Source: Bacteroidales bacterium (GTDB lineage: Bacteria > Bacteroidota > Bacteroidia > Bacteroidales > UBA3824). From it: a DNA stretch of 63,383 bases. Positions 36,387 through 62,119 of the stretch are shown one piece after another; positions within the stretch are counted from its first letter, which is position 1; each line of letters starts with the position of its first letter. Below the pieces are notes generated by a model. The model did not search any database. It had not been told where the DNA came from and saw only the letters and a program-made list of their open reading frames with translations. The stretch lies in the NCBI GenBank assembly GCA_024413595.1, contig JAKSUC010000015.1, forward strand, positions 1 to 63,383, read 5' to 3'. Made by a program: the position numbers and the translations under genes.

Positions 36387-36395
36387 TAAAAAAAA

Positions 36396-37109: not shown

Positions 37110-37130
37110 TTTTATTGTTTTGTTAAAATA

Positions 37131-37162
37131 CAAAGGTATATCAAAAAAAATGAAACTTCCAA
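37131..37162 (-). promoter_or_regulatory. promoter of the LytTR regulator gene
   Basis: On the minus strand TTG (37162-37160), 21 bp, TACCTTTG (37138-37131), 21 bp before the ATG. Confidence 0.7.
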
Positions 37163-37348
37163 ATTGATATAAATTTATTTAAGAAAAGGAATATCTAGTA
37201 TTTTTAATTGTATAATTCATAAAATATTTGCAACTATGATAATCATCTAAACAAAATCTCTATAGAGATTAATTTATTTTAATCTTATAGTTCCATTATA
37301 AAAAGTCTATTAAAAGTTTTATACAAAATTAAAGAATAATATTTTTTT

Positions 37349-37710
37349 GTTCAAATTCCATTATGCTAGATTAAAAGTAAAAAAAAGTAAAATATTTATA
37401 AACTCTTGACTATGTTTCAATTCCATGAAGTACGATTAAAAGCCTTGAAATTGTTCTGTAATAACGGTAGCTGGATGAGTGTTTCAATTCCATAAAGTAC
37501 GATTAAAAGTCATTGTTCTTAATGTTTCTACGATTTGTTTTTTAGGATGAGTGTTTCAATTCCATAAAGTACGATTAAAAGAGCAAAGTAAATACATTGC
37601 ATTGTTACGCATTTCTTTGTTTCAATTTCATAAGGTACGATTAAAAGCTCCTTGTGCTTCAAAAGTACACTTGTCATAACTGTTTCAATTCCATAAGGTT
37701 CGATTAAAAG
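37349..37710 (-). repeat. ancestral, divergent repeats at the old end of the array
   Basis: Starts at 37349, 37414, 37481, 37553, 37619 and 37682. Plus-strand centres read ATTATGCTAG, ATGAAGTACG, ATAAAGTACG (twice), ATAAGGTACG and ATAAGGTTCG, before AAAAGGTTCA from 37748 on. From the second on, each change is kept in all younger repeats. Confidence 0.85.
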
Positions 37711-39302
37711 GTTTTAGAGAAAATTCCAGAGACTCAAGTTATAAAATGTTTCAATTCCAAAAGGTTCAATTAAAAGTTTGATTAAACTTTTTTACAAAAA
37801 AGTTTAGGCTGTTTCAATTCCAAAAGGTTCAATTAAAAGAATAAAAACTGAAGAATATAGAACTATAAATCAATATGTTTCAATTCCAAAAGGTTCAATT
37901 AAAAGTAAAGGAACTATTTCTTACAAAGACTATATTCAAAGGTTTCAATTCCAAAAGGTTCAATTAAAAGAAAATTAGGAAATGAACAAACATGGAACTT
38001 AACACAGTTTCAATTCCAAAAGGTTCAATTAAAAGGAAAATACAAAAGCAATTTGCTTAGGTGCATACATGTTTCAATTCCAAAAGGTTCAATTAAAAGG
38101 ATTACAATACTTTCTGACCAAGAATTTACTGATAAACAGTTTCAATTCCAAAAGGTTCAATTAAAAGATTTGCTAGTGATTTGATACAAACACTTAATTC
38201 TGAGTTTCAATTCCAAAAGGTTCAATTAAAAGATCCTAACTCACAGGGATTAATGTTCGGATATTGCTAGTTTCAATTCCAAAAGGTTCAATTAAAAGCA
38301 AATAGGAAAATACCTTTTTTTAAAGGTATATCAAGTTTCAATTCCAAAAGGTTCAATTAAAAGGTAATGTATATGTGTTTGTATTGGTTGTTATTGTGTT
38401 TCAATTCCAAAAGGTTCAATTAAAAGACAAAACAAGCAATTAGCCGATTCTATTCTGCAACGTTTCAATTCCAAAAGGTTCAATTAAAAGAAAAAACATC
38501 AACGAGAGATAAAAGATTATGCGTGTTTCAATTCCAAAAGGTTCAATTAAAAGAATTTGCAAGCGTTTTAAATGACGCTGTAAAAAAGTTTCAATTCCAA
38601 AAGGTTCAATTAAAAGAAAAGAGATTAATGCTGAAATTAATAATCAAGATAGTGTTTCAATTCCAAAAGGTTCAATTAAAAGAAAGTAGAAGGCGCACCT
38701 TCACCAAATTCTCTTCTGTTTCAATTCCAAAAGGTTCAATTAAAAGCTTTAGCAAAAGTCATAAGAGATAAAATGCGAGAATGTTTCAATTCCAAAAGGT
38801 TCAATTAAAAGAGAAGATTATTCTCAAAAAATGTTTAATAATGAATATGTTTCAATTCCAAAAGGTTCAATTAAAAGAAATAAAGGAGAACATACTGTAC
38901 AAAAATTTTATGATGTTTCAATTCCAAAAGGTTCAATTAAAAGAATGCCACAATCAGTAACATTACCTTCATCACTATAGTTTCAATTCCAAAAGGTTCA
39001 ATTAAAAGACAAATGAAGAAATTTATCAAATAGAAATTATAAGGTTTCAATTCCAAAAGGTTCAATTAAAAGTAATTTTGTCGTTGTTTGTTGGGATATT
39101 ATTTGCTAAGTTTCAATTCCAAAAGGTTCAATTAAAAGTAAGCAACTTAGATGAAGTTGAAACAAAGAAATCAAGTTTCAATTCCAAAAGGTTCAATTAA
39201 AAGAAAAATTATACTTATTCTCAAGATAAAGAGGGGAAAGTTTCAATTCCAAAAGGTTCAATTAAAAGAAAGTATGTCTCAAGATACTGCTGAAGAAATG
39301 AA

Positions 39303-42300
39303 GTTTCAATTCCAATAGGTTCAATTAAAAGTCTTATAAATGAAAAAGATAAACTCAGAAATCTAGTTTCAATTCCAATAGGTTCAATTAAAAGGTTTTT
39401 GTTCTTCTGTTATGTTTGAAAATTCTAGGTTTCAATTCCAATAGGTTCAATTAAAAGTCCCTAACATTTTTGTATCGTGGTGGTCTATAACGTTTCAATT
39501 CCAATAGGTTCAATTAAAAGGAAAAGTGTTCCTCCCCCCCTTTTATAAAAGTTTTTGAGTTTCAATTCCAATAGGTTCAATTAAAAGACAAATTACGATT
39601 TTGACCATGACCCTACAGACCAAGTTTCAATTCCAATAGGTTCAATTAAAAGGTTTAGATTACATATCCAATGCTCGTCGGTAAAACTGTTTCAATTCCA
39701 ATAGGTTCAATTAAAAGTTTGATTTTTTTTTTGTAAGGAAAATACAAATAATAGTTTCAATTCCAATAGGTTCAATTAAAAGTAACTCTATCGGGATAAC
39801 GTGATTTATCTTTAATTATGTTTCAATTCCAATAGGTTCAATTAAAAGTTATCAACAAATAAATAAAGAAAGTAAACCACTTTTGTTTCAATTCCAATAG
39901 GTTCAATTAAAAGTCGAAAACAAGGTGAGATGATTTCATCTTACTTGGTTTCAATTCCAATAGGTTCAATTAAAAGTCAGAAGGTAAACCGCTTTCAGAA
40001 TACCAATATTTGTTTCAATTCCAATAGGTTCAATTAAAAGACTTCTGCTTGGGACGCTATTGTAAAAGCTACAAAGTTTCAATTCCAATAGGTTCAATTA
40101 AAAGTATTATTATTATTATTATCTTTTATTTTTATATTTGTTTCAATTCCAATAGGTTCAATTAAAAGTCGAAAAAGAAGCTATCGATATTATTAATAGA
40201 TATAAGTTTCAATTCCAATAGGTTCAATTAAAAGGTAAAATGGGTGCTATCAGCCTTGTTTGGAACAAGTTTCAATTCCAATAGGTTCAATTAAAAGTTG
40301 AACAAGTTAACAACTTGTTACGTGATTCAGAGTTTCAATTCCAATAGGTTCAATTAAAAGAGTTTTAAAAATAAGTATAAAAAACATAGTATATGTAGTT
40401 TCAATTCCAATAGGTTCAATTAAAAGAAAACTGCATTATTTAATAATTGGCATTTATGCGACGTTTCAATTCCAATAGGTTCAATTAAAAGCTAGTATCA
40501 AAATTAACTTGAGGAGGTTCCCACGCGTTTCAATTCCAATAGGTTCAATTAAAAGCGAAGGCACATCGGATAAATTTTGACCGCTCTCTTGTTTCAATTC
40601 CAATAGGTTCAATTAAAAGTGGAAAGTATTTAGGTAATCTAATTAGAACTTACCTAAGTTTCAATTCCAATAGGTTCAATTAAAAGAATATTTTTTTTAA
40701 TTATTATTTATACTTAATTATAGTTTCAATTCCAATAGGTTCAATTAAAAGAATATCTTACATCTCAATATTGTCCAACTGGTATTGTTTCAATTCCAAT
40801 AGGTTCAATTAAAAGAATGAATAAAAATTTTGTTTGATTTTCGTAAATGCGTTTCAATTCCAATAGGTTCAATTAAAAGTTGCGTTACAACGTTGGTTTG
40901 AAAAAGTTCTTAGAACGTTTCAATTCCAATAGGTTCAATTAAAAGCGTCTAGTAACAAAAAGATGCACTGAATTGGTTTTGTTTCAATTCCAATAGGTTC
41001 AATTAAAAGTCTGAAGCCCTTTTAAATAATTGGCATTATTGCGATGTTTCAATTCCAATAGGTTCAATTAAAAGAATACAAGCTCCTCCCCTCTTTGTTT
41101 CTTGGATGTAGTTTCAATTCCAATCAGAAAACAGCCTTTTAGGTAAAAGAGCAGGTATTTGTTTCTTGGATGTAGTTTCAATTCCAATAGGTTCAATTAA
41201 AAGGGTAAATAAAAGTTTCTATATTCCAATTTGTGAAGTAGTTTCAATTCCAATAGGTTCAATTAAAAGTTATTTTGCGTTATTGATTTATAAAAATTTA
41301 ATCAGTTTCAATTCCAATAGGTTCAATTAAAAGGGTTTAATAAACTCAGTTCTTATCTTTCGTTTCAATTCCAATAGGTTCAATTAAAAGCCTCTTTCTT
41401 CATTTTGATTGCCGTTTGTTTAGAAGTTTCAATTCCAATAGGTTCAATTAAAAGTCAAATAAATGAAATATTGACACCGCTTTTTGATATGTTTCAATTC
41501 CAATAGGTTCAATTAAAAGTTATTTATACAAATGAAATTATACAAGAAACTACGTTTCAATTCCAATAGGTTCAATTAAAAGGTGTTCATTGTCAATTTA
41601 GAGATAAACTCAAGAATGTTTCAATTCCAATAGGTTCAATTAAAAGAAGAACCACTAGTATAAGCACCATTATTATAAACTCGGTTTCAATTCCAATAGG
41701 TTCAATTAAAAGTTCTAAATACACTCAAGAACACGAATGCGTGTATAAGTTTCAATTCCAATAGGTTCAATTAAAAGGCAATAACGTTTGCGAAGTTTTT
41801 TTGTAAGATAACGGTTTCAATTCCAATAGGTTCAATTAAAAGTAATTGCGCGCATTTTGATGAAAACGATGCACGTGAGTTTCAATTCCAATAGGTTCAA
41901 TTAAAAGATTCTTCCTATTCCTAGTGCACAAGATGCTAGTAAATAGTTTCAATTCCAATAGGTTCAATTAAAAGAGATCTCTACAATATTTGTTTGAGTG
42001 TTTTAAACGTTTCAATTCCAATAGGTTCAATTAAAAGCTTTTTGTTTAATTATTGAAGAAATCCAACTCCAAAGTTTCAATTCCAATAGGTTCAATTAAA
42101 AGAATAAAGCTAGAATATGGCAACAAAAAAACAGAAGTTTCAATTCCAATAGGTTCAATTAAAAGATTTCTTGACTAACAGAACCTTTTTCGTCGTCTTT
42201 GTTTCAATTCCAATAGGTTCAATTAAAAGACGCAACATACGAAAAGGAGAAGCTTCGCGCAAATGTTTCAATTCCAATAGGTTCAATTAAAAGTTTGTCG

Positions 42301-43974
42301 CTAAAATTTCAGACACTAACGATATAGTTGTTTCAATTCCAATAGGTTCAATTAAAAGTCTTTTTTGTGTCAAGCACTCCGTGCAATTATCACAGTTTCA
42401 ATTCCAATAGGTTCAATTAAAAGTCAACAAATTTCAGAAACCAAAAACTTTATTATAAGTTTCAATTCCAATAGGTTCAATTAAAAGATAGTATAATAAT
42501 AACAAAGAGATTTTTTGAAACTTGTTTCAATTCCAATAGGTTCAATTAAAAGCCTATTTTTTATTACGCTGTTTCAGTTTCTACCTTGTTTCAATTCCAA
42601 TAGGTTCAATTAAAAGTATTTAGATTACCCACTTCCCGAACTTGCTAATTTGTTTCAATTCCAATAGGTTCAATTAAAAGTGTCTAGAATCTTTTTTAAC
42701 TGCTTATCAATCATTGTTTCAATTCCAATAGGTTCAATTAAAAGCCTTTTCTGCATTATGTACTAATATAGTTATTGTTATGTTTCAATTCCAATAGGTT
42801 CAATTAAAAGCAAAATCATCACCATATGAATATAGTTTTTTATCGTTTCAATTCCAATAGGTTCAATTAAAAGTCTTCCTATTCCTAGTGCACAAGATGC
42901 TAGTAAATAGTTTCAATTCCAATAGGTTCAATTAAAAGATTACTTTTTCAATTCTTATGAATTACAATTTATGCTGTTTCAATTCCAATAGGTTCAATTA
43001 AAAGAAAGAAGTTAGTCCTAATGGCCATTTAGTTCTTGATAAGTTTCAATTCCAATAGGTTCAATTAAAAGTCCTAGATTACAATCCATCGTTTGACGAT
43101 GAACATGTTTCAATTCCAATAGGTTCAATTAAAAGCTGCTAATGCTTGTTGTTGTTGTAAAAAACCTAACTGGTTTCAATTCCAATAGGTTCAATTAAAA
43201 GAAGTAGTTGATTAAACTGCTCTTGTAAGGTTTGCAGTTTCAATTCCAATAGGTTCAATTAAAAGTCAACAACATTGCCAATTTTGTTGTTGGATAACGG
43301 TGTTTCAATTCCAATAGGTTCAATTAAAAGATTTTTGGGTTTTTAAAATGGTCTTGATAGATTTTTGTTTCAATTCCAATAGGTTCAATTAAAAGGCATC
43401 GCTTGCGGTTGTTAATGCAGAATTAGCTGGTTTCAATTCCAATAGGTTCAATTAAAAGTAAATTTTGGATTTGGGTGATTGGTCCAAATATTAGTGTTTC
43501 AATTCCAATAGGTTCAATTAAAAGGCTACTAGAGGTCGTGGCAAAAACGTTTCTGTTAGGTTTCAATTCCAATAGGTTCAATTAAAAGAAGCGTAAGAGC
43601 CGTTAGCTTGTAAAATTTTCTTGTTTCAATTCCAATAGGTTCAATTAAAAGAAAAGGAGGGTTGCAAAGAAAATTCACCCAAGAAAAGTTTCAATTCCAA
43701 TAGGTTCAATTAAAAGCGATGTGCCTTCGCATATTATACAATCATGGCTTAGGTTTCAATTCCAATAGGTTCAATTAAAAGTGCAATTAATCCAGGTGTT
43801 GGCACTTTAATTGGCGCGTTTCAATTCCAATAGGTTCAATTAAAAGTTCAGACGAACAATTAAAAAGTTATAGTAATGACGAGTTTCAATTCCAATAGGT
43901 TCAATTAAAAGCAATTATTATTATGGCAAAAGTAACATGTATGCCGTTTCAATTCCAATAGGTTCAATTAAAAG
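39303..43974 (-). repeat. block of about 72 variant repeats (CCAATAGG type)
   Basis: Every full repeat that I read between 39303 and 43974 carries T at the centre (CCAATAGG) in place of A (CCAAAAGG). The switch is sharp at both ends: 39240 is A-type and 39303 T-type; 43946 is T-type and 44010 A-type. Confidence 0.9.
41111..41174 (-). repeat. truncated repeat with partly duplicated spacer end
   Basis: The repeat stops after GTTTCAATTCCAAT (41111-41124). The 50 bp that follow (41125-41174) end with TGTTTCTTGGATGTA, identical to the last 15 bp of the preceding spacer (41096-41110). A normal repeat resumes at 41175. Confidence 0.85.
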
Positions 43975-46900
43975 CTTGCATTATCTTTGCGTTAACGCTG
44001 TTAAATTAAGTTTCAATTCCAAAAGGTTCAATTAAAAGTTTGCGGTCGTTTACTAATTGTTGTAACTCTTTGTTGTTTCAATTCCAAAAGGTTCAATTAA
44101 AAGGCGATATCTACTTCTAATTCAGAGTTTGAAACCACGTTTCAATTCCAAAAGGTTCAATTAAAAGATACTATCTAACGCAAATACATTAAAAAATCTA
44201 TTGTTTCAATTCCAAAAGGTTCAATTAAAAGAGATGCAATATGCTAATTTTTACTATTATCCAACTAGTTTCAATTCCAAAAGGTTCAATTAAAAGACTA
44301 TGTGCAGTCCCAAGCATTTTAGTATCATGAGTTTCAATTCCAAAAGGTTCAATTAAAAGTTGGAATTTCTGATGAAGCAACCCGTTGTAATAATTGTTTC
44401 AATTCCAAAAGGTTCAATTAAAAGTATGAGTTTGTAGGAACTTATAATCAGTCTGATTAGTTTCAATTCCAAAAGGTTCAATTAAAAGAGTATATGACTT
44501 ATCATTAGGTACAATATTATTATGTTTCAATTCCAAAAGGTTCAATTAAAAGCTAAAGCAACAGCTGATTTACAATTCATGAACAAAGTGTTTCAATTCC
44601 AAAAGGTTCAATTAAAAGAACAGAACTTTCAACATTAACGGTTGTAGTAACATTAGTTTCAATTCCAAAAGGTTCAATTAAAAGAGAAGCATTTTTCAAA
44701 CGTCTTAATGATGATGACCGTTTCAATTCCAAAAGGTTCAATTAAAAGTTATTCTCCTGAAACTATTAGCCCAACATTAACTACGTTTCAATTCCAAAAG
44801 GTTCAATTAAAAGTTTTGAAATTTCTGATGAAGCAAACCGTTGTAATAATTGTTTCAATTCCAAAAGGTTCAATTAAAAGTTGAAAGAAACGGTAATAAG
44901 ACAGCTACTAATCCAGTTTCAATTCCAAAAGGTTCAATTAAAAGCTGTAGGGTCTTCGCTACCTTCGTTTGTGTTTAATGTTTCAATTCCAAAAGGTTCA
45001 ATTAAAAGATAATGGCCAAGACGTTTCCGAATTCATCATTACAAGTTTCAATTCCAAAAGGTTCAATTAAAAGAAAATGCTTGGTTCTGCACATAGTCCT
45101 GTTAATATGTTTCAATTCCAAAAGGTTCAATTAAAAGATACTCAGAGCATTCAAAATTAAAGTGAATTATTTGTTTCAATTCCAAAAGGTTCAATTAAAA
45201 GCTACAAGAAATAATATCTGCAGATATTGTAAAAAAGTTTCAATTCCAAAAGGTTCAATTAAAAGTCTACCATCAAGAAAATAAACATTGAAAAAATCGA
45301 CGTTTCAATTCCAAAAGGTTCAATTAAAAGACAGAGGTTTTATGGATTACAAATCCGTAACATTCGTTTCAATTCCAAAAGGTTCAATTAAAAGAGTTCT
45401 GAAATAGTATCAGGAACTTCAACCTCATGTTTCAATTCCAAAAGGTTCAATTAAAAGATGGCATTTCGGTAAATGTCATTGTGGTGCTTCCTTGTTTCAA
45501 TTCCAAAAGGTTCAATTAAAAGTGAGTATCATTGAATAATATATTTTTATAATGATAGTTTCAATTCCAAAAGGTTCAATTAAAAGATTTGTTTTTCTTC
45601 GTCTTGTAGTTGCTTTAAATAGTTTCAATTCCAAAAGGTTCAATTAAAAGGACACAAGTATTTGGAATACAAATTTCGATTCGAGTTTCAATTCCAAAAG
45701 GTTCAATTAAAAGTTGCAATCGTATTGCTTTTTTAACTCTTCCCAACTGTTTCAATTCCAAAAGGTTCAATTAAAAGATTTGTTAAGCTATTTGATTATA
45801 TTCCTTATTATGGTTTCAATTCCAAAAGGTTCAATTAAAAGTTTAAACCGCCATTACTTATAGCATTTGTACGCTTCAGTTTCAATTCCAAAAGGTTCAA
45901 TTAAAAGCAACAAGCGTCTCCTATTTTTAGCCGTGTTAGTCGCTTGTTTCAATTCCAAAAGGTTCAATTAAAAGTTCACTCAACCAGTGCTTTGTCATGA
46001 ATTTGTCAATGTTTCAATTCCAAAAGGTTCAATTAAAAGATCAAACTGCTAAATCTTCTAGCAGTTTTGGAACGTTTCAATTCCAAAAGGTTCAATTAAA
46101 AGTTATTTAAATTTATTACCTACATTATGTAAAAAAACGTTTCAATTCCAAAAGGTTCAATTAAAAGGCTGATTTGAATAATCCTTAGAAATACCACTTT
46201 TGTTTCAATTCCAAAAGGTTCAATTAAAAGGAATTGACAATATTATTTTGTTTAACAATAGAAAAGTTTCAATTCCAAAAGGTTCAATTAAAAGACATTT
46301 ATCAAAATTAAATTTATAGTTTGTAAAGCGGTTTCAATTCCAAAAGGTTCAATTAAAAGGTTCTGTCATTAGTCCTGGTCTTGGTACTATTATGTTTCAA
46401 TTCCAAAAGGTTCAATTAAAAGTGCCTAATACTGCAATGCATCAACAAGCAATATAGTTTCAATTCCAAAAGGTTCAATTAAAAGGAATATCGTCAGGGT
46501 TATAAGTAAGCGTTAAAAAGGTTTCAATTCCAAAAGGTTCAATTAAAAGATTGGTTGATAGATAACACTTTGATAATCAAAATCGGTTTCAATTCCAAAA
46601 GGTTCAATTAAAAGAAACTATTTATTCACATTTTAAAGATGTTTTTCATTGTTTCAATTCCAAAAGGTTCAATTAAAAGCGTATATTTGTACAAACATTT
46701 AAAAATAACACATTAGTTTCAATTCCAAAAGGTTCAATTAAAAGAATTAGATATATAACCTTTAGCAAATGCGATGATGTTTCAATTCCAAAAGGTTCAA
46801 TTAAAAGTCATCAAAAATTTTTTTAAAGCCTTCGGCGACAGGAGTTTCAATTCCAAAAGGTTCAATTAAAAGCGCTTTGGTTACCAAGATTAGCTAATTC

Positions 46901-49900
46901 GGGAAGGTTTCAATTCCAAAAGGTTCAATTAAAAGGAATTGCAATACAATCAACGTTTCATTGATGACTAGTTTCAATTCCAAAAGGTTCAATTAAAAGT
47001 GATGCCACTTCGCGCGCCATGCCCTCTTCAAATACGTTTCAATTCCAAAAGGTTCAATTAAAAGATGAGCAATTGATTTCAATAATTCAGGTGTTAGCTC
47101 GTTTCAATTCCAAAAGGTTCAATTAAAAGCTATCAAAGCAAACGAAGCTTTATTAAACAACTGCGTTTCAATTCCAAAAGGTTCAATTAAAAGGTAATCC
47201 TAACACTGATCATTACAGAATACAATAGTTTCAATTCCAAAAGGTTCAATTAAAAGTTATACAACGAACAATCGTCTAATCGTCTCAACGTAGTTTCAAT
47301 TCCAAAAGGTTCAATTAAAAGTTATTCACGATTTTTTTAAATCTTCACTACTTCAGTTTCAATTCCAAAAGGTTCAATTAAAAGGTAATGCACGCCGCTA
47401 TCATTGTTGCAATCGTGGGTTTCAATTCCAAAAGGTTCAATTAAAAGTTTATTGCAGATTTTGTAACATTAACAGTGCTTTGTTTCAATTCCAAAAGGTT
47501 CAATTAAAAGTATAGGATTAACAGCAGGCAACGAAAACACAAACTTGTTTCAATTCCAAAAGGTTCAATTAAAAGAAAGTCTATAAGTCCACCAATAAAA
47601 GGAATGTCAGTGTTTCAATTCCAAAAGGTTCAATTAAAAGCGACAAATCGCAATTTATATACCCAAAAATTTGTTGTTTCAATTCCAAAAGGTTCAATTA
47701 AAAGACAACAATAGAATTTATTAATTATTACGAAAGCGAGTTTCAATTCCAAAAGGTTCAATTAAAAGTTAAAAGGTTCAATAAAAGTAAATGAATTTAC
47801 AACAGTTTCAATTCCAAAAGGTTCAATTAAAAGTTCTTAACAACTCATTTATTTCATTTAATAATTTGTTTCAATTCCAAAAGGTTCAATTAAAAGAAAC
47901 GGCAACTCAAGTGCAGATTCGTCAACAACAACGTTTCAATTCCAAAAGGTTCAATTAAAAGACGAAGCATACGCAAGAAGTGGCGAGACTATGTTGTTTC
48001 AATTCCAAAAGGTTCAATTAAAAGAACCCCGTGACGGTTTTAATCAGATCCAGTTTGCGGTTTCAATTCCAAAAGGTTCAATTAAAAGACTATACCGTCT
48101 GAGCCGTTTTGAAAGGTTGTTATCTTGTTTCAATTCCAAAAGGTTCAATTAAAAGATGTTTGTACTTTCTTTTTTATTGATAGGTATAAATAGTTTCAAT
48201 TCCAAAAGGTTCAATTAAAAGTGTCTGAAATTTTAGCGACAAAATTTAGTTGATAGTTTCAATTCCAAAAGGTTCAATTAAAAGCAACCCAAGTCCATGT
48301 TGTAACATCGTCTTTTTTGTTTCAATTCCAAAAGGTTCAATTAAAAGTTAGTGATAAAAATAAAGTAAATGCAAAATCTGTGTTTCAATTCCAAAAGGTT
48401 CAATTAAAAGAAAGAACGGATTTCTTTAATCCTATTAAATTTACGTTTCAATTCCAAAAGGTTCAATTAAAAGATGCTAAGCCCAACAATGCACAGATTG
48501 AAAGCTTATGTTTCAATTCCAAAAGGTTCAATTAAAAGGTTGCAATGAGAACGCCTTTCGTAACATAGAAATAGGTTTCAATTCCAAAAGGTTCAATTAA
48601 AAGTTTACCCTTACCATCAGCACAAGATGCAACTAAGTAGTTTCAATTCCAAAAGGTTCAATTAAAAGATTTCTTGACTAACTGAACCTTTTTCATTATC
48701 TTTGTTTCAATTCCAAAAGGTTCAATTAAAAGTTGCGGGGCTTGTTCATTTGCTTGAATAGCTGTTTGTTTCAATTCCAAAAGGTTCAATTAAAAGGGTT
48801 GTTTTTGAAGTGCGTTGAGATTTTAGACGTTGTTTCAATTCCAAAAGGTTCAATTAAAAGTTATAGTGAATTTAAGTATGTTCAAGATAGTGTTCAGTTT
48901 CAATTCCAAAAGGTTCAATTAAAAGTTTTAAATGTGTTACCGGCTTGTACTCTTTCACAAGCGTTTCAATTCCAAAAGGTTCAATTAAAAGGTAACTCTG
49001 AATATAAGAGCCAAGTTGATATTTTGTTTCAATTCCAAAAGGTTCAATTAAAAGCATTTAGTTTTCATGCTCCGGAACATGGATTTATTGTGTTTCAATT
49101 CCAAAAGGTTCAATTAAAAGAAAAGTTTCGGCTCGAACAAGTAACCCGAGAACTGTTTCAATTCCAAAAGGTTCAATTAAAAGCTAAGGATAAAATATCA
49201 AGTTCGGGCGCTGTTACGTTTCAATTCCAAAAGGTTCAATTAAAAGTTAAACACAGCTACAGCTCAGAAATTCGCTGAATTGTTTCAATTCCAAAAGGTT
49301 CAATTAAAAGGATCCAGTTTGCGTGGTTTAATATCTTTAAATTTTTGTTTCAATTCCAAAAGGTTCAATTAAAAGACGCAAAAAGCGCACATGGAGGGAT
49401 TCCAATAATGTTTCAATTCCAAAAGGTTCAATTAAAAGAAGTAGAAGGCACACCTTCAGCAAATTCTCTTCTGTTTCAATTCCAAAAGGTTCAATTAAAA
49501 GGAAATATATTTTCTCATAATTGTAATTTTCCGTTGTTTCAATTCCAAAAGGTTCAATTAAAAGGTTATGCTAGTATTAATTATGATACTACTATTTTAT
49601 TGTTTCAATTCCAAAAGGTTCAATTAAAAGAAATGTTTGTCTATCATTACCCTTTACAACAAGCGAGTTTCAATTCCAAAAGGTTCAATTAAAAGGGTTA
49701 GAAGTATTAAAAAACGTTAGAGAAGAATGGTTTCAATTCCAAAAGGTTCAATTAAAAGGGTTCGAAATTGTTTGTTTTAGAAAATGGAATTCCTTAGTTT
49801 CAATTCCAAAAGGTTCAATTAAAAGTACACAGCCAGTTTTGTGTCATGAGTTTGTAAATGTTTCAATTCCAAAAGGTTCAATTAAAAGATTACTGCCATA

Positions 49901-52900
49901 GGTGTCCATGAACTCAGTACCGTGTTTCAATTCCAAAAGGTTCAATTAAAAGTTAAAGATTTAGAAAGTACTTCTAACATTAATTCTGTTTCAATTCCAA
50001 AAGGTTCAATTAAAAGTCAAATTTAGAATGTTTCATTTTAGTATCGGAACTGTTTCAATTACAAAAGGTTCAATTAAAAGTATGAGGCTGTGTTTGATGT
50101 TACTACCGTTGAGGAGTTTCAATTCCAAAAGGTTCAATTAAAAGCAAAACTTGCCATTTAACGGTGAATATTCGAATAGTTTCAATTCCAAAAGGTTCAA
50201 TTAAAAGCTTTTTGTAAAAAGTTCCATCAAAAACTTTTATAAAGTTTCAATTCCAAAAGGTTCAATTAAAAGTTAATTGTGCAAAAAATAAAGGATAACT
50301 TACGTCGTTTCAATTCCAAAAGGTTCAATTAAAAGGCTGAAATTCAGAAATTGTTTTCAGAAGTCGATAAAAGTTTCAATTCCAAAAGGTTCAATTAAAA
50401 GAATAGTTGGGTTATTCCATTTTGTGCTACTCCTAAATCGTTTCAATTCCAAAAGGTTCAATTAAAAGTCAAAAATTGAAAAGTTCCACGCGTTGTGTTT
50501 CACAGTTTCAATTCCAAAAGGTTCAATTAAAAGCTGAAAAGTCTTCGCATCTTAAACAATATGATACAATGTTTCAATTCCAAAAGGTTCAATTAAAAGT
50601 AAGTAAGCGTAAAGAATATACTATCAAAACAACGGTTTCAATTCCAAAAGGTTCAATTAAAAGTCAACAAAAATGGATAAATCTAATCCATCTGGAACGT
50701 TTCAATTCCAAAAGGTTCAATTAAAAGTTTTTAAATTATAACAAAGTAATTTTTATTTTGCTGTTTCAATTCCAAAAGGTTCAATTAAAAGGAAGAGGGC
50801 ATGGCGCGCGAAGTGGCATCAACCAACTTGTTTCAATTCCAAAAGGTTCAATTAAAAGTTTGCAATAAATGCAAATCAACTTGATTACATTGCGTTTCAA
50901 TTCCAAAAGGTTCAATTAAAAGACTAATTTTATTTTTTAAGTCAACTGCTGTAATTGTTTCAATTCCAAAAGGTTCAATTAAAAGTTTGGAAGAGTTTTG
51001 TACTCAGCATTTGAACCACTGTTTCAATTCCAAAAGGTTCAATTAAAAGCCATACGTGCATAGAGCTTATCAACAAATTCTAAGTTTCAATTCCAAAAGG
51101 TTCAATTAAAAGACCCCCGTTTTACCCTCTGAAAGTCAATATGTTAAGTTTCAATTCCAAAAGGTTCAATTAAAAGGCTATTTCTGTTTCTACTTTGTTA
51201 TTTATAGATGTGTTTCAATTCCAAAAGGTTCAATTAAAAGCTTTTGCGAGTCCTGGAAAAATGCGCTAATTTCAGTTTCAATTCCAAAAGGTTCAATTAA
51301 AAGAATGGGTTAATTACTTGAATTTTAGGGTTTTTAAAAGTTTCAATTCCAAAAGGTTCAATTAAAAGACAATTTGCACCTTAATTAAAATCAACAAAAA
51401 AAATGTTTCAATTCCAAAAGGTTCAATTAAAAGGAGACCCGTCGGAGACACCTAAATAATCTCTTAGTCGTTTCAATTCCAAAAGGTTCAATTAAAAGGT
51501 ACAATACTTTTGTATATTTACTAACTTGTTCAGTTTCAATTCCAAAAGGTTCAATTAAAAGCTCCGAGAACTGCTCCGTTAAGTTCTTCGAAAAAGTTTC
51601 AATTCCAAAAGGTTCAATTAAAAGAGATATTCAGAGTACAAACAGATACCGGATAGATTGTTTCAATTCCAAAAGGTTCAATTAAAAGTCCGCCAGTTTC
51701 GTTCCAAAAATCTAAATTATCGGTTTCAATTCCAAAAGGTTCAATTAAAAGTTTATTATTGAATTATTTCAATAATAGTTGGCAATAGTTTCAATTCCAA
51801 AAGGTTCAATTAAAAGATATTTTAAGGCGGTTTTTTCGTGGTCATAATCTAGTTTCAATTCCAAAAGGTTCAATTAAAAGCTATCATATTCTTTAATAAA
51901 TTTTTTAAATATATGTTTCAATTCCAAAAGGTTCAATTAAAAGCTGAGTTAAGTAACTATTTACTTGATGAGCATTATGTGTTTCAATTCCAAAAGGTTC
52001 AATTAAAAGATACCAGAGCCAGAAAAAGAAACCCCAATTGATGAAAAGTTTCAATTCCAAAAGGTTCAATTAAAAGTATTTTCTTCATGTCTATATCGCT
52101 TTTCTGAGTGGTTTCAATTCCAAAAGGTTCAATTAAAAGTTGTAAATGTAATAGACCGTTATAATATGTAAAGTTGTTTCAATTCCAAAAGGTTCAATTA
52201 AAAGCCAAAACAGCCAAAAGCAACAGCAAGCGCGCAAACAGTTTCAATTCCAAAAGGTTCAATTAAAAGTCTATTGCTAATTTTGGCAAAGTTTGTCCAC
52301 ATGTGTTTCAATTCCAAAAGGTTCAATTAAAAGAAAAATGAGTTGAAAGAATTAAAACTTGACAGCATGTTTCAATTCCAAAAGGTTCAATTAAAAGTTA
52401 TTTGGCGTTTGACCTGTTAAACACCAAAAATGTTTCAATTCCAAAAGGTTCAATTAAAAGCGTTCTATTTTTTATCGTCTTTATATTGATTTTAAGTTTC
52501 AATTCCAAAAGGTTCAATTAAAAGGTGAAGGCACATCGCTAAGATTTTGACCGCTTTCTTGTTTCAATTCCAAAAGGTTCAATTAAAAGTATTATAAATG
52601 AACCTATTGGAAAATCTATAAAATTGTTTCAATTCCAAAAGGTTCAATTAAAAGAACTCAACCGATAGTTCTTTTTCATCTTCACCTTTGTTTCAATTCC
52701 AAAAGGTTCAATTAAAAGAACGTTTTTTTCAACTTTTTTAAATTCAGCAAATTGGTTTCAATTCCAAAAGGTTCAATTAAAAGGAAACTACTAAAATGCT
52801 TGAAGACTTGGTTCTAGAGTTTCAATTCCAAAAGGTTCAATTAAAAGAAGAATGAAAATCGATGTTTTAGGTAGTGATAGTTCGTTTCAATTCCAAAAGG

Positions 52901-54985
52901 TTCAATTAAAAGTTTTTGATGAAGCTGCCGAAGAAATTTTAGCTCAGTTTCAATTCCAAAAGGTTCAATTAAAAGACATCGCTCAAAGCACCTTTGTTTG
53001 TTGTTATCCCGTTTCAATTCCAAAAGGTTCAATTAAAAGTAAAAGTTTTTGGTGAAACTTTTTACAAAAAGTTTGTTTCAATTCCAAAAGGTTCAATTAA
53101 AAGAAAAAATAGAATTATCCCAACTTGGCAAAAAAATAGTTTCAATTCCAAAAGGTTCAATTAAAAGGAAATTGCTATAAATAACGGACTGTTTGGACGT
53201 TAGTTTCAATTCCAAAAGGTTCAATTAAAAGAGAAAAAAAAACAACCAAACAGCAAGAAAATAAGTTGTTTCAATTCCAAAAGGTTCAATTAAAAGAAAA
53301 AAATAGAGACACGTACAATTGAATCTATAGTTTCAATTCCAAAAGGTTCAATTAAAAGTGTACTTATTTTTGCGAAAACAATCAATTATATTTCACGTTT
53401 CAATTCCAAAAGGTTCAATTAAAAGTTATCGTAATTATGAAAATTTTACGAATTGGATTGAAGTTTCAATTCCAAAAGGTTCAATTAAAAGTGCTGTTAT
53501 TAGAACTCCCCGTATATGTAATTCGAGTTTCAATTCCAAAAGGTTCAATTAAAAGGAAACAGCGTAAAAAAAATAGGTGTCTATTTTTTTGTTTCAATTC
53601 CAAAAGGTTCAATTAAAAGCGCAATAACGTTTGCGAAGTTTTTTTGTAAGATAGCGGTTTCAATTCCAAAAGGTTCAATTAAAAGGGAAATGGTGGTATA
53701 CTTGACCTTACAACGGGAGAATTGTTTCAATTCCAAAAGGTTCAATTAAAAGAGGATTACTTCTCTAGTTGTATTCATGACCCTCTTGCGTTTCAATTCC
53801 AAAAGGTTCAATTAAAAGAATAATCCGTTATAATATGTAAAGTTTGGTAGATAGTTTCAATTCCAAAAGGTTCAATTAAAAGGATTAATAAATCCTTTTA
53901 TATTCCTGTTTGTGAAGTTGTTTCAATTCCAAAAGGTTCAATTAAAAGTGGTAATGTGGACGTTTTGTTTTATCTCCATACTCTCGTTTCAATTCCAAAA
54001 GGTTCAATTAAAAGTTTTGAAGACATTCTGGACATTTACCGCATCCGACGTTTCAATTCCAAAAGGTTCAATTAAAAGACAGCCAAGGTATTCACCGTCA
54101 ATTTACTCGCGAAAGTGTTTCAATTCCAAAAGGTTCAATTAAAAGTAAGCATAAGAACCGTTACTTTGTTTTATTTTTTTGTTTCAATTCCAAAAGGTTC
54201 AATTAAAAGAAAATACGCAAAACGCGTTTTGTTTTCTCTAGTATAGTTTCAATTCCAAAAGGTTCAATTAAAAGTAGATTTGTTATGCTTTCGCGATTAT
54301 CAACGAATAAGTTTCAATTCCAAAAGGTTCAATTAAAAGTGGAAAATGGGACTGGGACGAACTTGCTAATATTGTTTCAATTCCAAAAGGTTCAATTAAA
54401 AGAATAGTAAACTTTAACGTTGAAGGATTACATAATGTTTCAATTCCAAAAGGTTCAATTAAAAGTAATTTTTAATCGTATTGAATATTTCTTCCATATC
54501 TAGTTTCAATTCCAAAAGGTTCAATTAAAAGCATACCATACTTAGAAGCATCTTGTGCGGATGGGATGTTTCAATTCCAAAAGGTTCAATTAAAAGTAAG
54601 CATAAGAACCGTTACTTTGTTTTATTTTCTTGTTTCAATTCCAAAAGGTTCAATTAAAAGCGTCAAATTGTTTGATTTTCATACCAATATCAAAAAGGTT
54701 TCAATTCCAAAAGGTTCAATTAAAAGAAAGCGATAAATATAAAGACGTATTGAAAGAATTAGTTTCAATTCCAAAAGGTTCAATTAAAAGGGTCGAAAGG
54801 TAAATTATTATTGAACGTTTTATACGTTTCAATTCCAAAAGGTTCAATTAAAAGAGTTATTAACACTCTGATTACCGAGGTTTGAAAGCTCGTTTCAATT
54901 CCAAAAGGTTCAATTAAAAGTACTCCTGTACTTCCTAACGAAAGTCAGTACATTACGTTTCAATTCCAAAAGGTTCAATTAAAAG

Positions 54986-55150
54986 GGCAAAAATGCGAAA
55001 AAAATTATGCAGATTCTCAGAGAGTTGGCTCTTAAAATCTGCACAAATTTATATCATAAATCTGTCAATGCCAAATAATCCGAAAAGTTATTAGTTTCGA
55101 CAGATAAAAAAATTACACAATATGTCAAAGAACGTCTGAAATAAACTGAA
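54986..55150 (-). promoter_or_regulatory. CRISPR leader with promoter and hairpin
   Basis: 165 AT-rich bp between cas2 and the youngest repeat. On the minus strand TTG (55074-55072), 20 bp, TAAATTTG (55051-55044) is a good Bacteroidota promoter aimed at the array; transcription would start about 50 bp before the first repeat. Directly at that point GCAGATT (55009-55015) and AATCTGC (55036-55042) form a stem with an inner AGAG/CTCT pair. Leaders often carry protein-binding sites that guide spacer insertion; the hairpin might be that or a structured 5' end of the pre-crRNA. Confidence 0.7.
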
Positions 55151-55414
55151 CTATAAAAAGTTATCCAAATCGGCAGTCTGTTTACCTATCACTTCCTTGT
55201 CCAGCCATTTCTCACTTCTGTTCTTGAATATTATAATACTGTCAGTCTCCTTATCAATAAAATTGTCAGCCTCCAGAAGCATTTCCTTGAGCTTTACCTC
55301 ACTAATCTCGCCCTCAAAAACCGAGTTCTGAATCCAGTTGAGATACTTACGGCAAAGCTTCAGCATCTTGGCCACATTCTTCTCTTTGCAATCATAAACC
55401 AGAATCACATACAT
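55151..55414 (-). CDS. cas2: CRISPR-associated endoribonuclease-like Cas2
   Basis: 87 aa from the ATG at 55414 (MYVILVYDCKEKNVAKMLKL), the typical Cas2 opening with the conserved Asp after VY; a TTG three codons earlier would overlap cas1. The ferredoxin-like fold continues with YLNWIQNSVFEGEISEVKLK and SIIIFKNRSEKWLDKEVIGK. Cas2 dimers bridge two Cas1 dimers in the spacer-integration complex. Last gene of the cas operon; the array leader follows immediately. Confidence 0.95.
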   Translation of the reverse strand: MYVILVYDCKEKNVAKMLKLCRKYLNWIQNSVFEGEISEVKLKEMLLEADNFIDKETDSIIIFKNRSEKWLDKEVIGKQTADLDNFL

Positions 55415-55416
55415 AA

Positions 55417-56436
55417 CTACCAATACATTTTAAAGGGTTTATACTCTTCCATATCAAGCAAATGCTTGGCAAGTTTGTAGCACTCAAGTTTTATCAAGTG
55501 TCGGAAACTTACCTCACGCTTAAGACTCCTGTGCTTGAAAGTCTCGTTAAGCTTGTCGTCGAGAGCCTTCACAAAAGACTTCTTGCCTCGCTCGTTCAAC
55601 AGACAACTCGCAAGCTTATGGTCAAAATCAGATTTCTGAATCAGCCTCTTGTTGAGAACCATGAAAATCACCCTGTCAACAATCAGCGGCTTGAAAATCT
55701 CCGAGACATCAAGACTCAGAGAATATCTTCTCTCGCCAGGAGTATGAAGATAGCTGATAGTGGGATTCAACTGAGTCTGATGAATAGCCCTCAGACACTC
55801 CGTATAGCAAATCATATTGCCGAACGATATCAGAGCGTTGATCTCGTTGGCGGGAGGCTGCTTGCTTCGTCCGCCCATCTCGAAATCATTGATGATAATA
55901 TCGAAAGCCTCATAATAAGTCTGGCGGATATTGCCCTCAATGCCCATCACCTGATTCACGGTGTTGCATTTCTCCAGCTGATCACGGAAAGCCTTTATCT
56001 TATCAATTTGGACTGACAACTCTTTTCCCCTACGCTGATAATACTGCAAGTTGGTGAGCATATTGAACGAGGCGCCGTCTATGAATCTCCTGGCAATCTC
56101 CACACGTTTGGCCTTGCTCCTATAATGGTTGGTCTGCGTCAAGAGCATCCTTCCGCTCAGAAGCGAATCCCTCGACATGAAAGAGCCAGTATAGTTCTGG
56201 TAATAGTCGAAGAAATGAACCGAGATATTCTTCTGACCAAGGAAATTGAAAAGCGCGCTGTTTGCCCTCAGCGACCCGAAAACATAGAAATCGCCGATAT
56301 CCTCCACTGGAAGATACCTTGGCTGTCCATATTTCTGACACTCTCCGTTGCCGTCCTCCTCCACGGGAGTAAACTTCAGGGTGTTGTCCTTTCGCTCAAG
56401 CACTCCTGGATTGAATAGATAAAAAGTCTTTTTCAT
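55417..56436 (-). CDS. cas1: CRISPR-associated integrase Cas1 (type I-B)
   Basis: 339 aa. The integrase that inserts new spacers at the leader end. Metal-binding active-site residues are seen as Glu167 in MGIEGNIRQTYYEAF, His231 in SYLHTPGERRYSLSLD and Asp243 in the same stretch. The N-terminal beta domain (FYLFNPGVLERKDNTLKF, FYVFGSLRANSALFNFLGQK) is of the I-B kind. It starts just past the cas4 stop, behind the purine-rich GAGGAGGAG at the cas4 end, and is followed directly by cas2. Its G+C content is clearly higher than the neighbouring chromosome. Confidence 0.98.
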   Translation of the reverse strand: MKKTFYLFNPGVLERKDNTLKFTPVEEDGNGECQKYGQPRYLPVEDIGDFYVFGSLRANSALFNFLGQKNISVHFFDYYQNYTGSFMSRDSLLSGRMLLTQTNHYRSKAKRVEIARRFIDGASFNMLTNLQYYQRRGKELSVQIDKIKAFRDQLEKCNTVNQVMGIEGNIRQTYYEAFDIIINDFEMGGRSKQPPANEINALISFGNMICYTECLRAIHQTQLNPTISYLHTPGERRYSLSLDVSEIFKPLIVDRVIFMVLNKRLIQKSDFDHKLASCLLNERGKKSFVKALDDKLNETFKHRSLKREVSFRHLIKLECYKLAKHLLDMEEYKPFKMYW

Positions 56437-56439
56437 AAA

Positions 56440-56955
56440 TTACTCCTCCTCTACTTCGCCACAATAGCAGAAATCAAAATAGCTACAATTGCGGCAATAT
56501 TTCTTATCGACTTTTTCCGGGCATTGGTCCGAATCGATGATATTATCAATATCTTTCACGATTTCGGAAATGCGTTTTCTGTCGTTATCATCGAGCTCTA
56601 CTTGTTGAGTTTTCCTCAATGTTGGATATTCAAGGATACCAGTAACGCCTTCAATTCCATTCTGTTCAAAAGTATAGATATAGAACTTCAGCTGCCACTC
56701 ATGTGCCTCATCGAGTTTGTTGGATTTCTTAATCTCGTGAATCACCTTGTTTCTGGCATCATAGAAATCCACCTTTACGCCATCGATCTGAAACTCCTGA
56801 TACTTGTCGGATCTGTCGGAATATGATCCCTCATGTATCAGCTTGCCCTCCAGCACAAGGTCGGAGTTGTTCTCCATATTAATCCCACTCGCAAAAAGCC
56901 AGAGCTTCCGCTTGCAAACGTGGTAGTAGTTGAAATGTGTGCCTGTTACTTGCAT
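56440..56955 (-). CDS. cas4: CRISPR-associated exonuclease Cas4
   Basis: 171 aa from the ATG at 56955 (MQVTGTHFNYYHVCKRKLWL), the normal Cas4 start; an upstream TTG would add nine residues. RecB-family nuclease residues are visible: His41 in EGKLIHEGSY, Asp63 in VDFYD, Glu74 and Lys76 in HEIKKSNK. Four cysteines (Cys14 and Cys145, 154, 157 with 163 nearby in YCRNCSYFDFCYC) can hold the Fe-S cluster. Cas4 trims pre-spacers and checks the PAM, which fits the uniform PAM deduced from this array. Confidence 0.95.
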   Translation of the reverse strand: MQVTGTHFNYYHVCKRKLWLFASGINMENNSDLVLEGKLIHEGSYSDRSDKYQEFQIDGVKVDFYDARNKVIHEIKKSNKLDEAHEWQLKFYIYTFEQNGIEGVTGILEYPTLRKTQQVELDDNDRKRISEIVKDIDNIIDSDQCPEKVDKKYCRNCSYFDFCYCGEVEEE

Positions 56956-57012
56956 GGTGGTTATGGGGTTAGTGGAATACAAAAAAGAGTCAATAGTTTG
57001 ATAATAGTGTAA

Positions 57013-58086
57013 TTACTCACACTGATTCTCGTAATCAAAAGCCATCATAACATCAATGAGTTTCTTCTTGGCATTATTAATAGCCGAAGCTGACTCAGAC
57101 TCAGTCACAATGTAATTGGCACAAGCCAAAGTAATAAAGGTATCAGCACCTGCATTCTCATCAACGATAGGCTTGGCCTTAGGCTTGTCACCATCATCAA
57201 TAAGTTTTGCCCTGATAGCACCAGCCAATGTGTTTGCATTATCGCTGATTGCAATGGCAAGTGTTTCCATAAGGCTGAATGTGCGAGCCTGATTAGAGGT
57301 AACTCTCCACTCTATCAAAGCCTCAGCAAGGGCAGGTATAATCTTCTCCCTCTGCTCCTTGGGCATTACAAGGCACTCTCCAAATACATTCTTAGACAAA
57401 GTCCATCCTGCATTTTTCAGTTTCTCAATCATTTCGGTTGAAACCTCTGGTTCAAACTGCTGAGTAGTTACACAGAACAAGGTTCGCAAATCTATTGCCA
57501 CATCATATACGAACAAACCTGTAGTACGAGCCTGATCTGGAATCCAAGTACGACGAGACAAGGTTCTGTCATTATCCTGAAGGAACTGCTCAATCTCTTC
57601 CTCTGTCATCAACTTGTCGCTATCAGCCATTCTAACATTCACAGGATGCTGATTTGGTCGGTCGCTACGGTCAAAAGTGATATTTTCCTTGCTGATACCA
57701 CCAAGCAAAGGGTGGATAGGACGCATAGCCGAGATAGATAGTGGACTTCTGCGCTTCTTGGTTGGTCCATCACCAGCCCTCATCCAGCCACCAAGCAACT
57801 GGTCGATATAAGTAGGATCGCAAGGAGACCAAGGTTCTTTGTTCTCCAATTCCTTCTTTTTTGTAACATTGAAGTTGAAGGTAATAGGAGCCATCGGCAC
57901 ATTCAACTCATCACAAAGAGTCTGAAGAATTGAACGCTTTACCTGCTGACCGCTTGAAAATGCCATAGCCTTGTTGAACTGTGGATCATAATATGTCTTC
58001 TGACCGTCCTGTACACAGAAAACAGTCTGCTCCGCATGTTTGAGAGCTCTTAAGTAGATAAATGGATTATTCATAGTTTGTTTCAT
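57013..58086 (-). CDS. cas7: Cascade backbone protein Cas7 (Csp1-like)
   Basis: 357 aa. The crRNA-binding backbone subunit present in several copies in the effector. The N-terminus has the Cas7 signature AMAFSSGQQVKRSILQTL (about 41-58), followed by a long insertion rich in charged residues (RAGDGPTKKRRSPLSISAMR ... GISKENITFDRS) and GLFVYDVAIDLRTLF. Its start overlaps the cas8 stop (TAATG). The sequence seems to belong to the Porphyromonas-type Cas7 (Csp1) family, which I recall but could not search. Confidence 0.85.
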   Translation of the reverse strand: MKQTMNNPFIYLRALKHAEQTVFCVQDGQKTYYDPQFNKAMAFSSGQQVKRSILQTLCDELNVPMAPITFNFNVTKKKELENKEPWSPCDPTYIDQLLGGWMRAGDGPTKKRRSPLSISAMRPIHPLLGGISKENITFDRSDRPNQHPVNVRMADSDKLMTEEEIEQFLQDNDRTLSRRTWIPDQARTTGLFVYDVAIDLRTLFCVTTQQFEPEVSTEMIEKLKNAGWTLSKNVFGECLVMPKEQREKIIPALAEALIEWRVTSNQARTFSLMETLAIAISDNANTLAGAIRAKLIDDGDKPKAKPIVDENAGADTFITLACANYIVTESESASAINNAKKKLIDVMMAFDYENQCE

Positions 58087-59381
58087 TATTTAGATTTTAC
58101 ATTATTGATTGCTGCATAGTGAAGACGCAAGAGAGTTAGGAGATATGGAACATTGTCGGTAGGCATCTTGTTTACGATTCCTGCAAATTCCATAAACTTC
58201 TCAACTTCAGAAACCTCCGAAATTATTGAAGTAATATTCTCAACAAAATCTTTCTTGTTCTTGGAAGAGATAACAGACTCAGCTTTGCGTCTGTTGTCTG
58301 TTTTTCCTTTAGCACCCGATTTTGCATATTCTTCCATCAACATTGCAAAATCACGGGATAAATCCCATAACTGTTCATTGTTTAACATAGCTAATAACCA
58401 GATTTGATATGTTTGAAATTTTATTATTTGTTCTTCTTTATACTTTGGAATGTCGCCTTCATAGTATTCGCTCAAGCCTTTGGGCTCAAGAGCCTTTATA
58501 CCTATAACACCTTGTCGGCATGCTGTTCCCAAAGCCTCCTTGGTTGTCCATAAATCCTCAACCTGTTTAAAATTGCCACCAAACAACTTCTTGTAAAGTT
58601 GTGCAGGTTTTCTAATTTGCTCCAACACAAATGGTATAAAGCCGACGGTCGTATTAGTCTGTCCGAAATTATAAACATAGCCCATAGTCCTTGGAGAAGA
58701 AAACGTTCTACTGACTCCAATCAATACCTTTGTCCATGTTTGCATTTCAATAGAGGCTACTCCATCCTTAACATCAGACCATGGTCCAAAATTCTCCATA
58801 GGATTGTCCTCGTTGAAATCATAACCGTATTTATGAGCCAACCACTGAGCATTCCAGGTATTTACTTGATTACCTCTTAATTCCTTAAATGAATCAAGAA
58901 CTGTTCTATAGACCTTCCATCCATCAAAAATATCAAGAAGAATTACCTTGTCGAAAAACAAAATGGAATACCCTCCTTTAACTCCAACTCCCAGCCCAGA
59001 GCCATACCAAGACAAATAAACATCATCATCGGATACATCCATTTTGATATTAGTAACCTGCCCAGAAGTTGTCGCATATTCCTTCTCCTCTGATGCCGAA
59101 TAGCCTGGTGCTATACTGGCATCACGGAAACCACTTTCTATTTTTTTATGGATCTCATCCCGTTTCAACAAACGCTCTTCCTTGGTAAACTCACTAACAG
59201 GCTTGCTGTTTCCTTTTAGTTTCTGAACCAAAGGTGAATTCTGGACCCATTGAAAATACTTGCTGCTATCGAAAAACAAAGGGAAAAATACTTCATCAAA
59301 AAAAGTTTTGGGAGTATATTCCGTTTTGTATTTTTCATTATAGGCATCAAGAAATATCCTTCCAATATTTGTTGTTACCAT
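58086..59381 (-). CDS. cas8: probable large subunit Cas8 (Csp2-like) of the I-B effector
   Basis: 431 aa, no zinc finger or HD motif seen. Opens IGRIFLDAYNEKYKTEYTPK and continues with DVYLSWYGSGLGVGVKGGYS and YYEGDIPKYKEEQIIKFQTY. The call rests mainly on position: it is the only operon gene left to serve as large subunit (PAM recognition), directly upstream of and coupled to cas7 and 12 bp after cas3. I believe it corresponds to the Csp2 family of Porphyromonas-type systems; Cas8 proteins diverge strongly, so a profile search would be the test. Confidence 0.65.
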   Translation of the reverse strand: MVTTNIGRIFLDAYNEKYKTEYTPKTFFDEVFFPLFFDSSKYFQWVQNSPLVQKLKGNSKPVSEFTKEERLLKRDEIHKKIESGFRDASIAPGYSASEEKEYATTSGQVTNIKMDVSDDDVYLSWYGSGLGVGVKGGYSILFFDKVILLDIFDGWKVYRTVLDSFKELRGNQVNTWNAQWLAHKYGYDFNEDNPMENFGPWSDVKDGVASIEMQTWTKVLIGVSRTFSSPRTMGYVYNFGQTNTTVGFIPFVLEQIRKPAQLYKKLFGGNFKQVEDLWTTKEALGTACRQGVIGIKALEPKGLSEYYEGDIPKYKEEQIIKFQTYQIWLLAMLNNEQLWDLSRDFAMLMEEYAKSGAKGKTDNRRKAESVISSKNKKDFVENITSIISEVSEVEKFMEFAGIVNKMPTDNVPYLLTLLRLHYAAINNVKSK

Positions 59382-61544: not shown

Positions 61545-62106
61545 TTTCGAGAATAGATTTACCATCAAACTCTATCCTGCCATACATTGGCTCGCTTTCA
61601 TTAAATCTATTATAGCCAACAAGGAACGAACTATCCGATTCTCCGAATCTCAATTCAAATCCTTTCAAGTCGTTGAATTCTTCATCAGTCATCTCTACAA
61701 CCAAAGGATCGGGCAACATCACATCCTCATTTCTACATAGACAAATATGCTGTTTAGAAGCCGACAAAGCCTCTTCCTCTTTTTCAAAAGCCAAAACCAA
61801 AACAGGATTCACCATTACATCCCTAACAAGAATTGACCTGAAACGTTCCATTGATTTAGACTTCTTGTTCCATCCTCGAGGTTGAGTTACTTCCTGCTGA
61901 GAACTCATAGAAGAATAAGACAACTTGTTCCTTTTGATCTTGAATATACCTTTCTCATTAAGAAGTTCAGGAAAAAGTTTCTTCTCAATACCTTCAACAA
62001 TAGAAGGTGTTAGGAATTGCTGGCTGAATGTCTGACTATCTCGAACCGCAGACCATGGTTTTATGAAGCCAAACTGTCCAGTATATTTTACAATATAATA
62101 TTTCAT
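61537..62106 (-). CDS. cas5: Cascade subunit Cas5 (type I-B)
   Basis: 189 aa from the ATG at 62106 (MKYYIVKYTGQFGFIKPWSA); this start follows a GGA-containing stretch and removes a 21-residue extension that would overlap cas6. Cas5 marks: FGFIKPWSAVRDSQTFSQQF, then LTPSIVEGIEKKLFPELLN, the RAMP-fold opening that caps the 5' handle of the crRNA. It lies between cas6 and cas3 rather than after cas7, the more usual I-B place. Probably the Cas5p branch of Porphyromonas-type systems. Confidence 0.85.
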   Translation of the reverse strand: MKYYIVKYTGQFGFIKPWSAVRDSQTFSQQFLTPSIVEGIEKKLFPELLNEKGIFKIKRNKLSYSSMSSQQEVTQPRGWNKKSKSMERFRSILVRDVMVNPVLVLAFEKEEEALSASKQHICLCRNEDVMLPDPLVVEMTDEEFNDLKGFELRFGESDSSFLVGYNRFNESEPMYGRIEFDGKSILENE

Positions 62107-62119
62107 AATACATCCTTTA

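Follow-up and report, generated by a model that had tools for sequence, protein, structure and literature searches.

Overlapping spacers in a large type I-B CRISPR array of a Bacteroidales bacterium point to a 5'-CCN-3' protospacer-adjacent motif

The 63,383-nt window analysed here (contig JAKSUC010000015.1 of GenBank assembly GCA_024413595.1, from a Bacteroidales bacterium) contains a large array of clustered regularly interspaced short palindromic repeats (CRISPR) adjoining an operon of cas genes on the minus strand, and this report concerns the protospacer-adjacent motif (PAM) that can be read from the spacers of that array. The operon, cas6-cas5-cas3-cas8b-cas7-cas4-cas1-cas2 at 55151-62785, is a complete type I-B set, featuring a Cas3 with HD and helicase domains, a Cas8b, Cas5b, Cas7b and Cas6b assigned by PADLOC I-B models, and cas4, cas1b and cas2 (Table 1). 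The 273 array repeats occur mainly in two forms, AAAAGG (194) and AATAGG (72), with 7 others, and the 272 gaps between them comprise 271 spacers and one 100-nt stretch containing a broken repeat. The complement of the repeat terminates in ATTGAAAC, the usual ending of a CRISPR RNA (crRNA) handle. Because of this ending, the position of the array downstream of cas2 in the direction of the operon, and five degenerate repeats at its far, low end (37349-37710), the crRNA is probably transcribed from the minus strand, with a putative leader separating cas2 from the array and the youngest spacers at high coordinates. Numbering starts with S001 for the newest spacer and rises with inferred age.

The initial annotation of this DNA had proposed, from spacers that contain the flank of another spacer, a CCN motif on the crRNA 5' side, where the PAM of a type I system lies; every spacer that it named is present at its position in the array. 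Each ordered pair of 272 spacer sequences (the 271 spacers and one of the two halves of the 100-nt stretch with the broken repeat, the second half being dropped) was slid without gaps on both strands, overlaps were scored as matches minus twice the mismatches, and the bases preceding the overlapped spacer were read off in the crRNA sense. CC occupied positions -3 and -2 on the crRNA 5' side in 11 of the 14 flanks obtained at an overlap score of at least 11, with the third base free, against a background within the spacers of 191/9348 dinucleotides (2.04%; p about 9e-17). The proportion of CC flanks was 3/96 at scores of 6-10, 4/7 at 11 and 7/7 at 13 or above, while among exact overlaps it was 1/18 at 8-9 nt and 5/5 at 11 nt or more. 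The 14 overlaps scoring at least 11 compare with none when partners were reversed and with 0, 0, 1, 2, 0 and 1 in six shuffles, and the five exact overlaps of at least 11 nt with none in all seven controls. The opposite flank carried nothing comparable: on the crRNA 3' side neither CC nor GG stood in register in any of seven exact overlaps of at least 13 nt, and 1 of 22 flanks at a score of at least 10 began with CC. The flank observation is thus confirmed, and its interpretation as a CCN PAM is supported.

Seven of the ten sites originally listed were recovered at this threshold (52140, 48604, 39521, 50208, 48025, 42617 and 46873) and three fell below it. Two of the latter, 41908-41945 and 42874-42909, both read from 54532-54567, do have a CCA flank, at a score of only 5 (21/29 matches). 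The third, an AGG (plus strand) read for 53040-53074 from 37777-37810, depends on gaps in runs of T and A; the best ungapped alignment scores 4 and gives a CTA flank. Conversely, the 13-nt overlap of 48025-48059 with 49311 had been listed as possibly fortuitous, which is unlikely given the absence of exact overlaps of 11 nt or more from the controls. The motif had also been described as mostly CCA. At -1, 8 of the 11 CC flanks have A, while T, C and G occur once each, and the preference for A is suggestive only (p about 0.012 at 34.9% A).

CC flanks could also arise from codon or composition bias in the source phages, for example from conserved proline codons (CCN), with no PAM involved. Several of the overlaps are coding, and one reading at 54532/48604 places the CCN on a proline codon that is conserved. 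However, CC makes up only 2.0% of spacer dinucleotides, CC flanks occur on both strands, chance overlaps give 3/96, the 3' side shows nothing and the start register of related spacers is fixed, and we consider the probability of this explanation to be close to negligible.

This fixed register was apparent from spacers that resemble one another along their length; spacers taken from related phages have no need to share their first base. Same-strand pairs at least 75% identical over at least 22 nt numbered 11 at offset 0 and 3 at 24 other offsets together; at 70% identity or more the counts were 11 and 15. The 11 same-start pairs represent nine sites, since they include the trio 54597, 54146 and 43589. 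In 8 of the 11 pairs the far ends lie up to 2 nt apart, and fixed starts with variable far ends are what a fixed cut on the PAM side and a ruler-like cut on the far side would leave. The common register of near-duplicates at the PAM-side end therefore held, whereas the description of them as varying only at the other end was too strong: internal differences occur as well, confined to position 3 in two pairs and including position 1 in one.

Across the nine non-redundant, non-identical pairs there are 40 nucleotide differences and, in the best open frame, 7 amino-acid differences, where random placement of the same changes gave a mean of 20.2 and a minimum of 13 (0/5000 simulations as low as 7). 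As these differences are mainly synonymous, and nothing would favour codon conservation in array DNA, the related spacers appear to be separate acquisitions of the same sites from diverging phages of the same families. The alternative that same-start pairs arose by duplication within the array followed by mutation might account for one pair (42874 and 41908), which is identical over 36 nt. For the others it must contend with the excess of synonymous changes and with the unequal lengths of 8 of the 11 pairs, and as a general explanation we judge it improbable. In the two pairs that differ only at position 3 the change lies inside the seed region and is synonymous in both; escape followed by re-acquisition would fit, although two cases prove nothing.

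Table 1. Coordinates of the cas genes, the array and the spacers discussed in the text
Feature	Position	Strand	Evidence or relationship
Cas2	55151..55423	-	PF09827, 4e-21
Cas1b	55417..56436	-	TIGR03641, 447 bits against a cut-off of 304
Cas4b	56440..56982	-	PF01930; PADLOC Cas4b
Cas7b	57013..58086	-	PADLOC PDLC01493, 1e-185; NCBIfam Cas7 subfamily score under its cut-off
Cas8b (subunit that would read the PAM)	58086..59381	-	PADLOC PDLC01511, 8e-165 over 1-427
Cas3b (HD nuclease and helicase)	59394..61568	-	Profile searches including PADLOC
Cas5b	61537..62169	-	PADLOC PDLC01480, 1e-85
Cas6b	62120..62785	-	TIGR01877 above cut-off; PADLOC
CRISPR array	37349..54985	- (inferred transcription strand)	273 repeats of 29 nt
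Putative leader	54986..55150	-	Position only, between cas2 and newest repeat
Spacer S005	54661..54697	-	Flank CCG from S210, 11-nt exact overlap; not in initial annotation
Spacer S006	54597..54631	-	Same start as S013 (54146-54180; one synonymous change, position 3) and S177 (43589-43622)
Spacer S007	54532..54567	-	Flank CCC from S099, 24/29 overlap; not in initial annotation
Spacer S016	53949..53985	-	Encodes EYGDKTKRPHY of microvirus replication initiator
Spacer S021	53620..53656	-	Same start as S205 (41778-41813); one synonymous change, position 3
Spacer S038	52525..52560	-	Same start as S223 (40556-40590); 6 nt, 0 amino-acid differences
Spacer S044	52140..52175	-	Flank CCA from S018 (53819-53853), 24/26 overlap
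Spacer S057	51304..51339	-	Flank CCA from S181 (43331-43366), 17/18 overlap; not in initial annotation
Spacer S074	50208..50243	-	Flank CCT from S239, 17-nt exact overlap
Spacer S080	49826..49859	-	Same start as S140 (45975-46010); 8 nt, 0 amino-acid differences
Spacer S099	48604..48639	-	Flank CCA from S007, 24/29 overlap
Spacer S108	48025..48059	-	Flank CCA from S088 (49311-49346), 13-nt exact overlap
Spacer S126	46873..46906	-	Flank CCA from S192, 17/20 overlap
Spacer S192	42617..42651	-	Flank CCA from S126, 17/20 overlap
Spacer S210	41455..41490	-	Flank CCA from S005, 11-nt exact overlap; not in initial annotation
Spacer S239	39521..39558	-	Flank CCA from S074, 17-nt exact overlap

We conclude that the PAM of this system is very probably 5'-CCN-3', located on the 5' side of the crRNA. 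The products of cas4, cas1 and cas2 are predicted to cut new spacers there. Cas4 would set the cut on the PAM side and the far end would be cut by length, while Cas8b would read the motif during interference. In the repeat, the place of the motif is taken by AAC, and this would spare the array itself from attack. All of the evidence comes from stored spacers and bears on acquisition first. CC could accordingly be a motif of acquisition only, with Cas4-Cas1-Cas2 selecting CCN and Cas8b accepting a looser motif such as YCN during interference. A precedent is the type I-B system of Clostridioides difficile, reported to take new spacers from CCN while interference tolerates YCN (PMC8406132), and here the diverged relative of one targeted site reads TCA. 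We hold this narrower version to be a real though less probable possibility, and it is strictly compatible with a CCN PAM.

Several observations weigh against the CCN assignment. Three of the 14 flanks are not CC, all at score 11: AAC for 42553-42587, TAT for 54275-54310 and GGC for 50208-50243, the last of which, read from a second partner, conflicts with the CCT given by the exact overlap of the same spacer. At score 10, CC was found in 0/2 flanks, and the TCA above was read for 39521-39558 from the diverged partner 53040-53074. The flanks derive from overlapping or related phages and not from the matched protospacer itself, and among the 11 same-start pairs there is a trio as well as an identical pair, the latter a possible array duplication. 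Diverged microvirus homologues of four spacers lack CC in all but 1 of 53 sites (1/31 for 53949-53985, at sites matching at least 27/37; 0/9 for 46486, 0/11 for 38491 and 0/2 for 54079, at weak sites), although such sites are uninformative for a PAM because the preceding codon varies. In related arrays, pooled from the same genus and from carriers of related Cas8b proteins, CC was found in 1/4 flanks at a score of at least 12; two of the three non-CC flanks come from a genome without this Cas8b, and the overlaps are too few to replicate the CC result.

The collections and patterns searched yielded no exact protospacer. A search of the bacterium's own genome at E<=10 gave nothing convincing outside the array, the best other contig reaching E 0.017 (40 of 266 candidates scored). 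Among the 18 genomes of the genus, which are also the 18 of the family, 9 had matches at E<=0.001, mostly arrays with a similar repeat, and two genomes had single short matches only. In the order, 36 of 393 genomes gave matches; with no more than 2 candidates scored in each genome and a list crowded by repeats, this was no test for protospacers. When the whole array was compared in three pieces with INPHARED phages at E<=1, the best match, at E 0.01, was to the replication initiator of a microvirus. Seven degenerate patterns covering six spacer families (about 14 of 271 spacers) were run against IMG/VR, where one found 4 microviruses and six found none; spacers beyond these patterns were compared only with 87 microvirus genomes.

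Some spacers encode peptides of Microviridae. The S016 peptide reached 45.5 bits, with 87 matches in frames of the 87 microvirus genomes, against 30.6 bits for the best shuffle, and it lies in an annotated initiator in one genome (L034). Spacer 46486 (FLTLTYNPD; 106 matches) falls in the same replication initiator protein, as does the weakest case, 54015 (CGKCPEC; 8 matches), which adjoins 53949 in the array. For spacers 38491 (HQREIKD) and 54079 (QGIHRQFTR), which match what we take to be VP2 and the capsid protein, the scores are within the shuffle range; their 34 and 18 matches compare with at most 9 for the shuffles' top matches. The microvirus capsid family PF02305 gave no match in the 393 genomes of the order and 18 of the genus, nor did the control, so that absence is not shown. 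Targeting of Microviridae by CRISPR systems of gut Bacteroides has been published (PMC8530359 and PMC9367070).

It is rather probable that the array keeps a chronological record of a few phage families, including single-stranded DNA microviruses, with the same PAM-anchored sites recaptured whenever a diverged relative arrived. If so, one bacterial contig would yield both its own PAM and a signal of purifying selection for phages that nobody has sequenced. The results also show that one large array can reveal its own motif and the evolutionary constraint on unseen phages even when none of its targets is known.

Cas8b itself matched nothing in Pfam or NCBIfam and has no relative in the Protein Data Bank by sequence; a fold comparison gave a match to a type I-B Cascade that is not trustworthy. 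In a protein search, 1862 of 5645 candidates were homologous at E<=0.001, and a genome of the same genus (G014) encodes a Cas8b 55% identical to that of the window. Among 16 relatives in named genomes, 14 belong to Bacteroidales, Bacteroidia, Bacteroidetes or Prevotella, one to Cytophagales and one to Chlorobiaceae. A probable motif can now be assigned to this family, which is the first need of an engineer or of anyone matching phages to hosts. Two other arrays of Cas8b relatives (L052 and L060) also carry same-start spacers (27/35) on a common motif, presumably AAGLNP of microvirus VP2. The arrays of three further relatives gave no match to INPHARED, nor did one more, and repeat-protein matches of another relative's array were taken as chance.

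The array shows other irregularities. The AATAGG form occupies 72 consecutive repeats (39303-43974) and is bounded on both sides by AAAAGG, older at 37748-39268 and newer at 44010-54985; either the leader-end repeat mutated and then exactly reverted, or a block was recombined. At 41075-41174 a broken repeat is reduced to GTTTCAATTCCAAT; after it come about 50 nt, of which the last 17 duplicate the end of the preceding spacer. An AT-rich element, AAAAGTTTTTGATGGAACTTTTTACAAAAAG, is matched by several spacers (53040-53074, 50208-50243 and 39521-39558); one spacer from a different genome in the genus (L048) matches a 14-nt part of it, and IMG/VR gave no exact match to AAAAGTTTTTGATGGAACTTTTTACAAAAAG. 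Elsewhere in the window, a minus-strand open reading frame at 34774-35265 (163 amino acids; no Pfam match) repeats the unit CATCCAATCTTC internally. The same genome carries a second CRISPR array on another contig (C68, about 32535-37570), with 70 repeats of 37 nt, GTCTTAATCCTTGTTTTAATGGAATTTACTTTCTGAG; a published type III-B repeat of Bacteroides fragilis begins GTCTTAATCCTT.

A CCN motif is ordinary for type I-B systems and has already been inferred for the type I-B array of B. fragilis, whose repeat (BfragL29) is identical at 24/29 positions to the commonest repeat here. Protospacers of that system are described as having G at downstream positions 2 and 3 (NGG), which is CCN on the crRNA side (PMC9367070). 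Both the motif and the repeat orientation match those found here, and a Microviridae target was likewise reported for that system, although the motif was derived there from external protospacers with MEME, and the two systems are likened by repeat and motif, not by Cas8. The resemblance to the C. difficile type I-B system, with its CCN acquisition and YCN interference consensus as given in PMC8406132, is likewise one of motif and not of Cas8. A survey by Vink et al. (2021) gives CCA, CCN and CCT among 11 type I-B PAMs, under Moorella, Clostridium and Ureibacillus, while the Bacteroidota genus noticed there for type I-B, Petrimonas, has TTTA (PMC8482600). The closest parallel in logic is found in loci C, D and E of Sulfolobus islandicus, for which Erdmann and Garrett (2012) describe overlapping, near-identical spacers with a homogeneous end on the CCN side and a heterogeneous far end (PMC3468723). 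Those were fresh spacers taken from one plasmid in culture, whereas the array described here is natural, draws on diverged sources and has no known target.

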